A stretch of DNA of 33,812 nucleotides from an uncultured Clostridia bacterium (lineage in GTDB: Bacteria > Bacillota > Clostridia > Christensenellales > UBA1242), in contig CALWKH010000003.1 in assembly GCA_944381195.1 (NCBI GenBank), positions 1 through 33,812 of the forward strand, given 5' to 3'. This document shows, one piece after another, positions 1-17,576 of this stretch. Each line of letters begins with the position of its first letter. Position 1 is the first letter of the stretch. The position numbers and the translations under genes are program-made. A model generated the notes under the pieces. That model did not search any database and was not told where the DNA came from. It was given only the letters and a program-made list of their open reading frames with translations.

Positions 1-600
1 AATATTTTTTGTATTTAATATCTATCTCTTTTCATATTATAAGGGCTTGGCGAATTATAAAATTTTGTTTTAAGGTTGTTAGTCTGATTTTTATACATAC
101 TTTTTTCCTTTTATATTAACTTAGTGGATTGCTAAATTTTGTTTTATAGATTTGCTGGTTAGATTTTTATTTTTTATATATTTCTACTTTATTGGCTTGG
201 TGGGTTATGAGGAGCGCGCAAGGGCTTTGCGCCACGGGTGGCGCTGTGCGCACATAAAATGTGCGCTTTTGCGTGCAAACGCAAAAAGCCCTTGCAATAG
301 CCCGTTTTAACCTTTTTTGTTCCTATCTCCAACAACAAAAAAACTTAAAACAATCAAAATCTTGCATACCTGAATACCCCGTTTTAAAGGTCTTTGTTTC
401 TATTTTTACAATCTTTCATAACATCAAAAATATTCAAAGCCCTCACAAAATTGTTTTAAATGTTTTTATCTCTATTCTCTCTCGTAACACAAAAACTAAA
501 CAACTAAAAACTTGCAAATATAACTTTTACATCTGTTGTTTTTTAAAATATTTTCTCTCTTATAATCTAGGCTTGAAGAGTGAGTGGATTTTTTGTTGTT
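1..600. repeat. Degenerate ~75-nt tandem repeat array, non-coding
   Basis: No convincing gene lies here. A GTTTTAA/GTTTTAT head recurs at 67, 141, 304, 381 and 453, followed each time by a T-rich stretch of the type TTTGTTTCTATTTTT. The first units also share a tail of the type GGCTTGGCGAATTATAAAATTTT (near 44, 119 and 192). Spacings are 74, 163, 77 and 72 nt. The 163-nt step becomes 75 if the 88-nt GC-rich block at 209-296 is removed. Units are too divergent for a CRISPR array. The array probably continues to the left of the window. The similarity was judged by eye. Confidence 0.55.
202..303. other. GC-rich cloverleaf-folding element
   Basis: This is the only strongly GC-rich non-coding block in the window. 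An 11-bp outer stem (218-228 with 285-295) encloses three perfect hairpins. They are 229-234/239-244 with a 4-nt loop, 248-255/259-266 with an AAA loop, and 267-274/279-286 with a GCAA loop. The last hairpin and the outer stem compete for two A residues. A further 7-bp stem with one G-T pair (202-208/297-303) can close the whole. The strand is undetermined because palindromes fold either way. It could be a structured RNA, a mobile palindromic repeat or a cruciform protein target. The pairing is read from the sequence; the function is unknown. Confidence 0.6.
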
Positions 601-4830: not shown

Positions 4831-5595
4831 TTAATCATCAAGATTGAATGCTGTCATAATTTCGGCAAGGCTTTCTTTTGGTGTTAAAGCCTCTTCAAGT
4901 GAAAAGCCGTTTGTTTTCTTGTTCATTGCCTGCATAAATTCCCTTGGTGGAATTGAAAAAATTTCCTTACCCATACCCATTGATTTTGGAATTTTGCCAC
5001 CCTGACCATTAAGAAATTTTTCTGCCTCCGAAGGTGTTACGCTTTCTGTTTCGTTTTTCTGCGAAGTGGAGGCTTGTTTTTTGTTTTGAATTGTTCTTGA
5101 ATTAAAAGCACTGTAGTCATTTTTTAAATTCTTATCAAAACTTGGTGCTGCTGGCATGATTCCAGACATTCTGGAAAGCACACTTTTTGCATAACTTTTT
5201 GTGGCTTGATGTTCGGCTGTGGAACTGTCTACAATGACCTTTAAAGCATATTGAAAATCTTGCGTCAAGTCAAGAATTTCATCATATGAAACCAAAGGCA
5301 CAACTTTATCTTTCAATCGTTGCCAAGTTTGTGTCCATTTTTTATATAACAGTTGCAATCTCTGTGCCTCAAGTGAACGCAAGTTTTGTGTTGACTCAAT
5401 TATGTTTTGAGTTTTTTCTTCTCTTTGAACATAATCAAGAACAATGTCCTGCAAGTTATGTATCTTTCTTTCCAACGAGGAAATCATGCTGTTTTTTTCT
5501 TTTATTTGCGCCTGATGTTCTGCTTTAAGGCGTGCCAAAGTTATGTCTACTTCACGGGTAGAATAGCCATTTTGCTCTCTTGAAAATTGCTCCAT
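4831..5595 (-). CDS. DivIVA-like coiled-coil protein
   Basis: A 254-residue soluble protein. Residues 2-20 match the DivIVA/GpsB N-terminal pattern F-x5-GYS-x-REVD-x2-L, the region that in that family senses membrane curvature. A charged coiled coil covers about residues 20-90 and a second helical part about 90-150. The last 100 residues are polar and low in complexity, with short conserved-looking patches. The start at the second in-frame ATG is fixed by GGAGG six bases upstream, which sits inside the last codons of lgt. The gap to lgt is 1 nt, so the two are co-transcribed and probably coupled. The exact cell-division or envelope role is not shown by the sequence. The family call rests on the short N-terminal motif. 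Confidence 0.55.
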   Translation of the reverse strand: MEQFSREQNGYSTREVDITLARLKAEHQAQIKEKNSMISSLERKIHNLQDIVLDYVQREEKTQNIIESTQNLRSLEAQRLQLLYKKWTQTWQRLKDKVVPLVSYDEILDLTQDFQYALKVIVDSSTAEHQATKSYAKSVLSRMSGIMPAAPSFDKNLKNDYSAFNSRTIQNKKQASTSQKNETESVTPSEAEKFLNGQGGKIPKSMGMGKEIFSIPPREFMQAMNKKTNGFSLEEALTPKESLAEIMTAFNLDD

Positions 5596-5596
5596 T

Positions 5597-6379
5597 TTAA
5601 ACCTCCACTTTAACTTTCTTTGCCTTTTTGAAATAAAGAACAAGTTGAGTTATTAAAAGTGCCACACCGCCAATTATAATCAAAATGCTTAAAAATTGAC
5701 TTACCTTGATTGAACCAATAAAGAGTGCAGCGCTGTCATCTCTTAAGCCTTCCAAAAATGCCCTGATGATTCCATAGCCAATCATATATCCGCTTAGCAC
5801 AACACCTTTGATAACATTTTTCTTTGGCAAAACCAAAATCAAAATAAGAGCGATGCAAAGCAAGAAGTTAAAGAAACTTTCATAGAAAAATGTTGCCAAA
5901 TGCCATTCTCCATTAATCATGACAGACATTGGAAAATATTGCAGACTTTCATTTGTTGTTTCAACACCATAGCAACACCCAGCAAAATAGCAACCAATTC
6001 TGCCAATTGCCTGCCCCAAGATTAAGCAAGGCGCAGCCACATCTGCAACATTAAGAAAGTTTTTCTTGCGAACAAGACAATACAGCATAACACCAAAGGC
6101 ACCACCAATAACAGAACCATATACTGCAAGTCCACCAGACCAAATTGCAAAAGACTCCCAGCCCCATGGTCCGCCGTTAAAGATTAAAAAGTAAAGCCTT
6201 GCGCCAATGATTGCTGGAATGATTACCCAAAGCAAAATTTCAAAAATATCATCTGTTTTAAGCCCTCTGTATTTTGCCAAAAAACAACCCAAGACAACAG
6301 CCAAAATTATGGCAAGAGTTATTATAATGCCATACCAATGAATTGATAAACCAAAGATTGTGAAAGCCACATCGCTCAT
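5597..6379 (-). CDS. lgt: Lgt-family prolipoprotein diacylglyceryl transferase
   Basis: An integral membrane enzyme, 260 residues, about seven hydrophobic segments. The family transfers diacylglycerol from phosphatidylglycerol to the lipobox cysteine of prolipoproteins. The signature region reads GRIGCYFAGCCYG (126-138): the essential Arg of GRxGN is kept (Arg127) but Asn is Cys130. The catalytic His of the FHGG segment appears as Tyr87 in LAVYGS. This cysteine-rich form is, from memory, common among clostridial Lgt-like proteins. The lipobox protein encoded nearby shows that an Lgt activity should exist in the cell. It is the first gene of an operon with the DivIVA-like gene and has a strong promoter. 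Confidence 0.82.
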   Translation of the reverse strand: MSDVAFTIFGLSIHWYGIIITLAIILAVVLGCFLAKYRGLKTDDIFEILLWVIIPAIIGARLYFLIFNGGPWGWESFAIWSGGLAVYGSVIGGAFGVMLYCLVRKKNFLNVADVAAPCLILGQAIGRIGCYFAGCCYGVETTNESLQYFPMSVMINGEWHLATFFYESFFNFLLCIALILILVLPKKNVIKGVVLSGYMIGYGIIRAFLEGLRDDSAALFIGSIKVSQFLSILIIIGGVALLITQLVLYFKKAKKVKVEV

Positions 6380-6402
6380 TACAAACTCCCACCTTTTATT
6401 TC

Positions 6403-7890: not shown

Positions 7891-10152
7891 TTATTTTTTA
7901 CCTGCATTTGTGATTTCATATAGAACTGTTGAAAAGAAACGCTCATTAACAGAACCAATATCCAGTGCATTTTTCTTGTTTGTGATGAAGTTATTTCCAG
8001 TTTTTATCACATCATCCAAACGATAAAAACGAAGTTCCTCTAGACTTGTGCTTCCATCATGCATATTTTGATATGCCTTTGAGGAAAAATCTAGTTCAGC
8101 AAGCAGTTGAAGGTCGTTATTTATCTTCTGCAAACTGGAAAAATAGCCGTTCATTGTTGGTCTTGCATATCTCCAACCAAATTTTTCCATTCGCTCAAAA
8201 AATGTTTGACTGTTAACAAAAAACCCATTAAATCTGCTCACAACCGATGAATATGCATCAAACTTTGATTTTGGGAATACATCTATATATAATTGATTAA
8301 ACGGAGACTGCCTTCCATTAAACATATATGTCCAATCTGGTTCACTGAATTCAACAGGGTGGAAAATTCCAATTTGATAGTTGGTTGTTTTGTCAGACTG
8401 AACAGACATCAAGTTCACAAAACCATTATCTTCAATTTTAAACACACTTATGAGAGCATTTTCAACATATTTCCCCCATAAAAGTTTTCGTGCAAGAAAA
8501 TTCATTAAAGGATTCTTTATTATAAAATCATCAAAGTCTTGCTTCGACCACAGCCTTCCACTTATCATTGCGTTTTCAAGCCTTTTTGATTGTCTGGTGA
8601 TTTCACGCTCTAGTTTCTTTTTCTCAACCAGTGCATTTTTTGTTATTTCTGCACCACTTGGCTGAATCTCTACCTCAAAATTTGGCTTGATAACAATGGT
8701 GCAATTATCAACATCAAGTGCACTATCTTTAAGACTGAAATATGGCACCATTTTATCTTTTAAGGCTTCAATCTCCATTGGAGTTAACTCTTCTGTTTCT
8801 ATAAATCCCTTTAAAAGTGCATTTAAAATCAGTCTATGTTCAAATTCAAGCGGATTTAATTCTTTGAAAAGCTCTAAACTTTCTGCTTTCTGCTCTTTAA
8901 CAAAAATTCTAACAAATTTATCTATATTTTGCGAAGAGTTCTTCTTGTTTTCAATCATTTTAAGCAAAACGGTCAATGCTCCATTTGGTGCAATATTTTG
9001 GGCAACTAGACAAAAAATCCAATCTTTTTTGTCATCTTTTTGTGGTTTTATTATTTGGGAAGAAAGTTCCAAGCAAAAATTATTCAAACTTTTTGGTTCA
9101 AAAAATGATTTTAGATAGTTATTTTCAAAACAAGCATTTGTTGAATATAAATTTTGATATAGATTTATAATATATTTAACAACTTGAACACTTGCTTTTT
9201 CATTATTATAAAAAATCAGTTCTGGCAAAGAAGAAACATCAAAACTGCACTCCTTTTCATCAAAGCGTTGAGCGTTTTTCTTAAATTGAGCAAAATTTGG
9301 CTTATTAGAAGCGGAAAGTCTAACATTGTCTGCAATAAGTTTTTTCAACCCTTTATCTTTTTCATGATAATATATGTTTTGCAGTGCTGAAACAACCTCT
9401 TTTTGATTCTTAAAAAGCAAAAGCAATTTTATCACAATTTCAACGCTTAAATTGCCATTTTTTTGTTGCTGATTAAGATATTCTTTCACTTCAGCGTAGT
9501 GCTGTTTTAAAATGTTTTTTACCTGCCTTTCCTCTTTGAAAGAATGGTATAAATAAAGTTTGATAAGCTCATTGATTGCAGAAGGAACAGAGTTATCAAT
9601 TAAAAATTCAAATATCAGCATACCATAGGAAGAAAAGTTATCATAGGCAAACTTATAGAATTTCTTTTCATCCTTTTGGCACAAATCAAGCAAATAGTCT
9701 CTTGTTGGACGATACCACTTGTGCAAAATTGATGTGTTATTTGAGCCAAGAATGGCAAGCAGAAAATCACTCCACTTTGCAAAAGGCAAATTGGCAAAGA
9801 TTATGCTTTCCATGAAACGGTCAAAATTCCTTTCTGTTATATCAAAATCTTTTTGATTTCTGCTGGCAAAAACTACTTTTCCAATATGGGAAACAAAAAG
9901 TTTGCCAAAAAAAGTGATAAGTGCAGAATATTTTTTATGCACAAGCATAAAACTCAAAAAATTTCGCATATAAACAGGTTCTTCACTTGGCAAAAATTCT
10001 GCAAGCAAAGAAAGTTCATTTATACTAAAATCAACATTTGGAATATCATCTGCCTTTTGTGCTGATGAAGACGAAAAGAAATTATAAAGAACATCTCCTT
10101 GTTCTTTGCCCTTGAAACAATCTTTGTAAAACTCTATCAAATTACTATTCAT
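7891..10152 (-). CDS. DUF4132-domain protein
   Basis: A 753-residue, probably cytoplasmic protein without signal peptide or membrane segments. The first ~480 residues are alpha-helical and repeat-like (HEAT-type by appearance). The C-terminal third matches DUF4132. About residues 525-570 contain the pattern GRLW-x11-NPLMNFLARKLLWG. Further on come FHPVEF-x4-W, then SPFNQLYIDVF, and a GWRY segment. The family is best known from E. coli YehI and WGR-DUF4132 proteins; its biochemical role is not established. AAAGG lies eight bases before the ATG. It is a single gene with its own promoter, between the spoIVFB-like gene and the two-TM gene. Domain call from memory of the family pattern. Confidence 0.7.
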   Translation of the reverse strand: MNSNLIEFYKDCFKGKEQGDVLYNFFSSSSAQKADDIPNVDFSINELSLLAEFLPSEEPVYMRNFLSFMLVHKKYSALITFFGKLFVSHIGKVVFASRNQKDFDITERNFDRFMESIIFANLPFAKWSDFLLAILGSNNTSILHKWYRPTRDYLLDLCQKDEKKFYKFAYDNFSSYGMLIFEFLIDNSVPSAINELIKLYLYHSFKEERQVKNILKQHYAEVKEYLNQQQKNGNLSVEIVIKLLLLFKNQKEVVSALQNIYYHEKDKGLKKLIADNVRLSASNKPNFAQFKKNAQRFDEKECSFDVSSLPELIFYNNEKASVQVVKYIINLYQNLYSTNACFENNYLKSFFEPKSLNNFCLELSSQIIKPQKDDKKDWIFCLVAQNIAPNGALTVLLKMIENKKNSSQNIDKFVRIFVKEQKAESLELFKELNPLEFEHRLILNALLKGFIETEELTPMEIEALKDKMVPYFSLKDSALDVDNCTIVIKPNFEVEIQPSGAEITKNALVEKKKLEREITRQSKRLENAMISGRLWSKQDFDDFIIKNPLMNFLARKLLWGKYVENALISVFKIEDNGFVNLMSVQSDKTTNYQIGIFHPVEFSEPDWTYMFNGRQSPFNQLYIDVFPKSKFDAYSSVVSRFNGFFVNSQTFFERMEKFGWRYARPTMNGYFSSLQKINNDLQLLAELDFSSKAYQNMHDGSTSLEELRFYRLDDVIKTGNNFITNKKNALDIGSVNERFFSTVLYEITNAGKK

Positions 10153-17120: not shown

Positions 17121-17570
17121 TTATTTTATTACACCGCAAGCAATACGAACTCCACTGTCGCCTGCTGGTTGAGAAGAAAAATCATCTCTCTGTGAATGAA
17201 TGACAACAGTTCTGCCGACTATTTCATGAACAGTAAATTTATCAATCAAAACAGCACTTAGCGCATGACCCTGGTTTGAATATAACGGTGGCAAATCTCC
17301 AGCGTGGTTAGGGTGTTCTGCTTTGTTTGGGTTGTAATGAGAACCTGCATCAGCAAAAGTATCTGGCGGAGAACAACTTCCACCCTCATGAATATGAAGT
17401 CCCAAAAACTTGTTTGTAGGCAAGCCGTAGACATCAAACAAACAGACCACACCATATTTTGTGCCCCAAAAGTATGCATTACCTTCAATTTTATTGCCTT
17501 TTATTTTTGCTGTTAAATCTGGCTCTGAGCGAGTTTTATTTAAGATTTGCATAGTTTCAAAATTTATCAT
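17121..17570 (-). CDS. sodC: Cu/Zn superoxide dismutase, without signal peptide
   Basis: A 149-residue enzyme predicted to dismutate superoxide. All ligands can be placed: copper His59, His61, His78 and His125; zinc His78, His86, His89 and Asp92. The substrate-guiding Arg is Arg142, and Cys66 with Cys145 form the conserved disulfide. The end reads GVRIACGVIK as in the family. There is no signal peptide or lipobox, so export is not evident, although bacterial SodC is usually exported. The ATG is chosen because AGAGG lies nearby; an in-frame GTG 6 nt upstream is too close to that site. It is a single gene with no visible partner. Confidence 0.93.
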   Translation of the reverse strand: MINFETMQILNKTRSEPDLTAKIKGNKIEGNAYFWGTKYGVVCLFDVYGLPTNKFLGLHIHEGGSCSPPDTFADAGSHYNPNKAEHPNHAGDLPPLYSNQGHALSAVLIDKFTVHEIVGRTVVIHSQRDDFSSQPAGDSGVRIACGVIK

Positions 17571-17576
17571 AGACAC

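Follow-up and report, generated by a model that had tools for sequence, protein, structure and literature searches.

Several described elements are palindromes or act as folded DNA. Integron attC sites are recombination sites that work as folded single-stranded DNA; they lie at gene cassettes, and their folds carry mismatches and extrahelical bases. The terminal hairpins of AAV and other parvoviruses are viral, stand at genome ends, consist of a stem with two internal hairpins and occur in flip and flop orientations. The double-hairpin elements of Allomyces, which can be likened to the cloverleaf described below, are reportedly short GC-rich palindromes of mitochondria. Miniature inverted-repeat transposable elements (MITEs) have terminal inverted repeats, are non-autonomous and multicopy, and leave empty sites.

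The mitochondrial GC clusters of yeast, among them the conserved 42-bp sequence GC42, are GC-rich palindromes in an AT-rich genome, and a merged 86-nt cluster has a predicted fold of its own (excerpt of PMC4478555). In bacteria, REPINs are inverted REP doublets tied to a RAYT gene (excerpt of PMC3116915).

Here, we describe a GC-rich block in a window of 33,812 nucleotides, which is the whole stretch of DNA analysed (contig CALWKH010000003.1 of assembly GCA_944381195.1, an uncultured Clostridia bacterium). The block is one of 17 copies of a dispersed, non-coding, shape-conserved element in its genome. We favour, as somewhat probable, the reading that this element is a non-autonomous, selfish mobile palindrome: as single-stranded DNA it would fold into a four-way junction, and template switching would keep it perfect and sometimes flip it.

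Structure of the window copy

An earlier note, made from the letters of the window, had claimed an 11-bp outer stem enclosing three perfect hairpins, one with a GCAA loop, in a GC-rich block of an AT-rich gap at 202-303. Sequence and folds bear out the architecture: the stem and its hairpins (6, 8, and 6 bp) form a 78-bp core at 218-295 (Table 1), with TGT between hairpins 1 and 2, TT between hairpins 2 and 3, and five unpaired bases in the + strand junction. The composition is likewise as claimed, with a GC content of 0.58 in the core against 0.22 at 1-200 and 0.26 at 310-660 (0.35 in the whole window). The span was too generous: the core lies inside it, but the extra 16 and 8 bases are flank. 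The left flank amounts to 217 bp because the window opens at base 1 of its contig, C3.

A stem with three hairpins implies a four-way junction. Folded as DNA, the core reaches approximately -33 kcal/mol on both strands versus -17 and -16 kcal/mol for shuffles (z = -6.2 and -7.2 on the two strands), and none of 200 shuffles equalled it; folded as RNA with its flanks, it gives z = -3.7 and -5.2. The outer stem has 11 bp on the + strand, whereas the predicted optimum on the - strand has 9 bp (DNA) or 10 bp (RNA) because the junction bases have an alternative pairing.

Elsewhere in the window, positions 17121-17576 encode a copper/zinc superoxide dismutase domain (PF00080, E 5e-28); the host is related to Christensenella, a group of anaerobes. 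Positions 7891-10152 encode a 753-aa protein with a DUF4132 domain (PF13569), adjoining a 329-aa protein without a Pfam match.

Table 1. Positions of the cloverleaf and its flanks in the window
Feature	Position	Strand	Basis or remark
AT-rich leader	1-200	+	parts of 100-126 bp match the copies on C36, C47, and C77 at 85-89%
Left foot flank tgggttatgaggagcgc	201-217	+	similar across the four leader-sharing copies
Cloverleaf DNA palindrome core	218-295	.	DNA and RNA folds, genome copies, shape-only scan; "flip" orientation relative to the shared leader
Outer stem, left arm GCAAGGGCTTT, 11 bp	218-228	.	sequence
Hairpin 1, 6 bp, loop CGGG	229-244	.	sequence and DNA fold
Hairpin 2, 8 bp, loop AAA	248-266	.	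sequence and DNA fold
Hairpin 3, 6 bp, loop GCAA	269-284	.	sequence and DNA fold
Outer stem, right arm AAAGCCCTTGC, 11 bp	285-295	.	sequence
Right flank with two 31-bp units (296-326, 373-403), 77 bp apart, 81% alike	296-403	+	gapless repeat matches

Copies and their orientation

We searched the window's genome (G000; 1,003,947 bases in 97 contigs, 91% complete) and that of a sister species (G008; 89% complete), both drafts. BLAST with the window block returned three near copies, on contigs C36, C47, and C77. A covariance model (R1) built from the four near copies retrieved diverged ones, and after two further model rounds the element was placed at 17 distinct sites in the 1.0 Mb of G000 (C3, C4, C12, two on C18, two on C27, C33, C36, two on C43, C47, C56, C64, C65, C71, and C77) and at four in G008. 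None of these 21 copies lies inside a called gene, the calls being those of a home-made hexamer scorer. The elements measure ∼70-95 bp with outer stems of 7-13 bp, and GGGCT of the left arm is identical throughout the alignment (17/17 copies); the C71 copy is imperfect, with a mismatch in the outer stem.

The block is not a single-copy feature, which would have spoken against the earlier note's suggestion of a structured RNA or mobile palindromic element. Many near-identical copies, named there as the sign of a mobile repeat, were found in part: there are 17 copies, but near-identity is confined to four, and the remaining 13 are alike in shape more than in sequence. The exact common-type pattern, sought in one genome per species across 84,980 species (a set that may omit G000 itself), was confined to a single assembly, "uncultured Christensenella sp." CASEYA01, and to three of its contigs. 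Within the window's genus, seven of the nine genomes had no model match.

Orientation varies relative to the shared leader. For C47 and C77, the match to the window is on the opposite strand in the cloverleaf (96% and 85%) but on the same strand in the leader (85% and 89%); on C36, cloverleaf and leader match on one strand. Relative to the leader, the window and C36 cloverleafs therefore point one way and those of C47 and C77 are reversed (two of four inverted, on draft contigs). Since the fold is close to palindromic, a same-orientation alignment of the C47 copy to the window also exists, at 72%.

When the cores are set in a common direction, a hand count has the gene on the right pointing toward the element at 13 of 17 loci (two-sided p 0.049) and the gene on the left at 9 of 16. 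The C65 copy of G000 and its G008 orthologue on C55 are 100% identical over the element and 140 bp of flank (∼220 bp, L089/L091), compared with 84% over the surrounding 4.6 kb, a pattern closer to that expected of constraint or a recent exchange than of a neutral relic.

Beside the C43a cloverleaf, a neighbouring gene, which we take to be nucleotidyltransferase-like, is inverted in G008 (L081 3359-4000 versus L090 1492-2070). Two other palindromic structures were seen in G000. At a contig start (L051, C13, 87-368), the palindrome CTCACCCCTTGCGGGGTGAG repeats with differing spacers inside a longer repeat with GTTTCAATTC, resembling a CRISPR array; at L068 (C30, 9005-9122), a 118-bp nested hairpin of -69 kcal/mol has several perfect stems and is unlike the cloverleaf design.

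Conservation of shape

Across 12 diverged copies (alignment A5, 12 rows), 92.5% of structure cells are paired, a percentage lowered by misalignment in A5 of hairpin 1 (its 3' arm, four rows) and of hairpin 2 (one row). Pair changes are two-sided in 37 cases and one-sided in 4, and none of 500 shuffles reached the covariation score; versions of the structure slid along the alignment pair at 24-53%. Homologues with conserved pairing, whose lack the earlier note would have counted against its proposal, are thus present and show strong two-sided changes. Pairing is roughly as strict in the inner hairpins as at the ends.

A scan by shape alone over 775,711 bases of G000 returned 13 elements and one tRNA; one dinucleotide-shuffled copy of the same length gave no three-branch fold. 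Of the 14 copies known from models in the scanned sequence, the scan detected 13 and missed C27b; the other 228 kb of G000 were covered by model search. In 799,698 bases of G018, a genome of another genus (g11), it found four elements, three beyond the one found by model. When two or more hairpins were accepted (G000 and G018, 1,575,409 bases), the yield was 18 three-branch folds (17 elements and one tRNA), two weak two-branch folds (-10 and -13 kcal/mol) and no four-branch fold. The scan found none in 299,340 bases of G002, from the window's genus, or in 50,000 bases of E. coli.

Structure probably kept as DNA

RNA tolerates G.U pairs, whereas a structure kept as DNA on both strands, or repaired by copying, does not. 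In the 17 G000 copies, none of 577 predicted pairs is G.U on one strand and 5 of 581 are on the other, C33 and C4 having been taken from an exact-arm script and the others from BLAST or covariance models that permit G.U. In a set of 35 elements, which leaves out G8_55 (identical to C65) and the G272 copy, the counts are 6/1190 and 11/1195 on the two strands; nine of these elements have limits set by the shape scan, in which no more than one G.U is allowed, and for five of them that scan was the sole source. The 21 tRNAs called in scanned G000, folded in the same way, have 50 G.U among 501 pairs (10%). The Watson-Crick-only stems point to a structure kept as DNA, and it is chiefly the near absence of G.U that leads us to prefer DNA over RNA.

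A structured RNA family, either a small RNA or a 3'-UTR element with a four-way junction in the manner of tRNA-shaped regulators, would account for the strong covariation, the intergenic placement with its weak orientation lean (13/17, p 0.049), which a 3'-UTR RNA would predict, and the perfect conservation of the C65/C55 element with 140 bp of flank. We nevertheless consider it quite improbable: G.U pairs are almost absent compared with the tRNAs of the same genome, the element occurs in both orientations beside a shared leader, hairpin sequences and loops differ between genera, and Rfam has no match over the cloverleaf, either in the window at gathering thresholds or, with E allowed up to 1, in eight loci. 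An RNA gene as the main reading was set aside on the near-zero G.U and the two orientations, and a known RNA family on the Rfam result; the window block received no tRNA or tmRNA call.

Among the checks that the earlier note named for choosing between a structured RNA and a mobile palindromic element were Rfam and covariance searches. These gave strong covariation (37 two-sided against 4 one-sided changes) but no Rfam match, and its second option, as a mobile DNA palindrome, is favoured by presence/absence at orthologous loci and by the two orientations, whereas the G.U counts disfavour RNA.

Other genera and candidate insertion sites

Elements of the same shape with unrelated hairpin sequences occur in genera g11, g26, g34, and g41 and in family f11. 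Hairpin sequences and loops vary between genera and no sequence motif is common to all; the GGGCTT/AAGCCC foot is found in the window's genus (g1) and in part of g11. Outside the window's genus, 16 elements were collected, six of them by the shape scan only; the G266 and G268 copies have no clean three-hairpin fold.

With E ≤ 0.01, model R3 matched 9 of 309 genomes of the larger family, spread over 5 of 42 genera, and model R2 matched 6 of 147 genomes. An order-wide search with E ≤ 0.001 matched 3 of 396: the genome of the window, a second from its family, and a third from another family. Absences in the family and order searches are weak because few candidates were scored per genome (11-30), under stricter filters.

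A locus in g11 gives a presence/absence comparison. Some part of the probe matched in 33 of 34 genomes, and in an alignment of 10 of the 30 fetched loci the element is present in G018 and G268 and absent in eight others, one of which (G270) carries an unrelated stretch of ∼47 bp at the site. Several loci outside the alignment have longer intergenic spaces with no cloverleaf fold. G018 and G268 keep the same foot, but their hairpins differ. Next to the same gene end, a different cloverleaf is present in G267 and G272; it is nearly identical between the two and unrelated to the G018/G268 type. Against the empty sites, the G018/G268 element shows a 3-bp TAA that may, though not clearly, be a target-site duplication. 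The G008 orthologue of the C27a region lacks both the G000 copy and its surroundings (∼380 bp in all), suggesting that the moving unit may be larger there.

These loci bear on whether the element is instead a site used by the host, either a bidirectional terminator or a binding site for a nucleoid or junction protein, that was duplicated and rebuilt under selection for shape. Placement between genes fits such a site, as does the strong conservation of one locus between species; hairpin 2 of some g11 copies is set between an A-tract and a T-tract like a two-way terminator, and window hairpin 2, with TTTT after it, has a terminator-like score. However, a T-rich stretch lies directly beside the core in only 7 of 21 copies, in DNA that is very AT-rich, and a host site sits poorly with the absence of the copy from eight aligned relatives at the g11 locus, the lack of a model match in 7 of 9 genomes of the window's genus, and the lack of a motif common to all genera. 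We judge it rather unlikely.

Leader, flanks, and solo feet

The leader of the window copy contains two 47-bp units (26-72 and 100-146), 74 bp apart and 72% alike, and the first ∼20 bp of the right flank, from 296, resemble the other leader-sharing copies. The evidence for the flank units is gapless repeat matches, as Tandem Repeats Finder reported no array of ∼75 bp next to either the window copy or C43b. Solo feet stand upstream of a full copy on C77 and on C43. Flank units and solo feet could be the mark of a polymerase that stalled at the hairpin and then restarted; this is the weakest part of our argument.

Repeated flank units are also what a purely mutational origin would lead one to expect, in which template switching keeps building and perfecting short inverted repeats and mobility plays no part. 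Such an origin would agree with the different cloverleafs at the same g11 locus and with reports of arm homogenisation and spacer inversion (excerpt of PMC8604942) and of perfect hairpins (excerpt of PMC8794818). Neither the exact number of three hairpins nor the shared foot nor the presence of similar copies at 17 sites would follow from it, and we assign it little probability. A mobile palindrome in which template switching repairs the stems remains our preferred reading.

Other repeats were seen near cloverleafs. The G184 cloverleaf (L117, 1100-1590) terminates a stretch in which intergenic units of ∼80 bp (CGCTCTC..CCGGCAGAGT) appear, by eye, to be repeated, like the leader units beside the window copy. 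A dispersed intergenic repeat (GTGTTCCACAC..GAGAGTTATTG / CGGAGCGCACCAAC) is common to C4, C65, and the sister genome (L089 near 5500-5720, L034 after 15100, L021 1-200). One or two further families (CAAGTTGGGTCAAGGGGCAACGCTCC; TTCTTGACCTATCTTGG) lie around several cloverleaf copies (L081 about 6050-6400, L050 about 1700-2200, L110 about 1630-1884).

Search for a mover or parent element

The RAYT family (Y1, PF01797) had no match in the draft genomes of G000 (91% complete) and G008 (89%), and IS110 transposases had none in 20 genomes, all drafts; RAYT and IS110, the two transposase families searched for, were accordingly rejected as movers for the carrier genomes tested. PF01797 was matched in one of the nine genomes of the genus, G004, by a Y1/RAYT-like gene with internal stops (L116, contig C2, 115933-116247); model search found no cloverleaf in that genome.

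Inverted feet with arms of at least 10 bp, 0.2-5 kb apart, number 10 pairs in 776 kb of G000. Two correspond to the solo feet at C43b and C77, two (C36 and C46) end in or near housekeeping genes, and of the remaining six, five are on C4 and one on C8. The five on C4 form a cluster at about 28000-32200 of L035, with GGGCTT-containing arms of 10-11 bp, 2-4 kb apart. Outside known copies, six 10-base foot patterns gave 17 matches in the 776 kb. Two of these have flanks in common with a full copy that lies downstream; the other 15 were presumed to be chance. On these matches, an autonomous parent with the same ends was provisionally set aside for the sequence searched.

The same pairs speak to an ordinary MITE of a DNA transposon, in which the outer stem would be the terminal inverted repeat and the inner hairpins accidental. 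Terminal inverted repeats of 7-13 bp, the GGGCTT foot in g1 and part of g11, and the empty sites at the g11 locus are as a MITE would have them. The 10 far pairs, with two being solo feet and two having ends in or near housekeeping genes, fit less well, and accidental inner hairpins would hardly be paired about as strictly as the ends; we regard an ordinary MITE as highly improbable.

A phage or plasmid origin was rejected, as all searches came back empty: no similar DNA was found in 50,697 phage and 72,556 plasmid records, viral contigs had no exact match to the common-type pattern (which the window's own copy does not fit), and the neighbouring M1-peptidase gene, used as a query, retrieved no viral contig.

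Proposed mechanism and significance

For the cloverleaf, we infer both mobility and mechanism, as follows. The element would act as single-stranded or extruded (cruciform) DNA, and an enzyme of the host or of another element would recognise the folded junction or its foot (GGGCTT/AAGCCC) and move it. The constant number of three hairpins suggests that a four-way DNA junction is recognised by some enzyme. Where a replication fork meets the folded strand, polymerase template switching would repair the hairpins to Watson-Crick pairing; it could also change hairpin sequence, invert the interior between the outer arms, and perhaps duplicate flanks.

Template switching would explain both the pairing and the flips, and we propose it for the repair and inversion steps because it is a published mechanism for inverted repeats elsewhere: in other organisms, switching between inverted repeats homogenises the arms and inverts the spacer (excerpt of PMC8604942), and it is reported to create perfect hairpins (excerpt of PMC8794818).

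Counting against this reading are the failure to find a mobilising enzyme (two families, in drafts), the C65/C55 identity, the orientation lean (13/17), the ambiguous target-site duplications, the ∼380-bp gap at C27a, the scoring of 9 of 309 family genomes, the imperfect C71, G266, and G268 copies, and the fact that the flips are known from draft contigs.

A bolder version, which we hold tentatively and as doubtful, has the element defined by DNA shape alone: each single strand would fold into a paired, Holliday-like four-way junction, an enzyme that reads the junction instead of the sequence would move it, and template switching would let its sequence drift while the three hairpins are kept.

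The constant three hairpins are a concrete, unexplained constraint. Repeat finders and BLAST look for shared sequence, and cloverleafs of different genera share almost none; if the element is indeed defined by shape, sequence searches would miss it, and it might be common. If it is mobile, a junction, and not a sequence, could be what specifies a replicating DNA parasite, and template switching would become testable as a force that rewrites and perfects bacterial hairpins.

Comparison with known systems

We compare the element, a shape-conserved four-way-junction DNA palindrome that is probably mobile and of which we found no description among the open-licence papers listed, with its nearest relatives in design. 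Among the literature matches listed, which come from open-licence papers represented by excerpts (mitochondrial palindromes, REPs, MITEs, and stem-loop surveys), none describes a bacterial element with three hairpins.

Viral terminal hairpins of the AAV/parvovirus kind offer an analogy of shape only, with no relation implied. Compared with attC sites, the cloverleafs are nearly perfectly paired and have three hairpins. MITEs share with them the terminal inverted repeats, non-autonomy, multiple copies, and empty sites, but no parent transposon was found for the cloverleaf, whose interior itself consists of three widely varying hairpins.

REPs and REPINs are likewise small, intergenic, non-autonomous bacterial palindromes predicted to form hairpins in single-stranded DNA, but a REPIN is a doublet, whereas the cloverleaf is three hairpins and a stem (excerpt of PMC3116915). 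The REP tag GTAG/CTAC occurs at the feet of none of 21 copies and CGTC/GACG at those of one (C33).

Yeast GC clusters share the GC-rich palindrome in AT-rich surroundings, presence/absence variation, and constraint on pairing (excerpt of PMC4478555). GC42, however, is a mitochondrial element of conserved sequence, whereas the cloverleaf resides on bacterial contigs and keeps its three hairpins while their sequence varies (for GC42, excerpt of PMC4478555).
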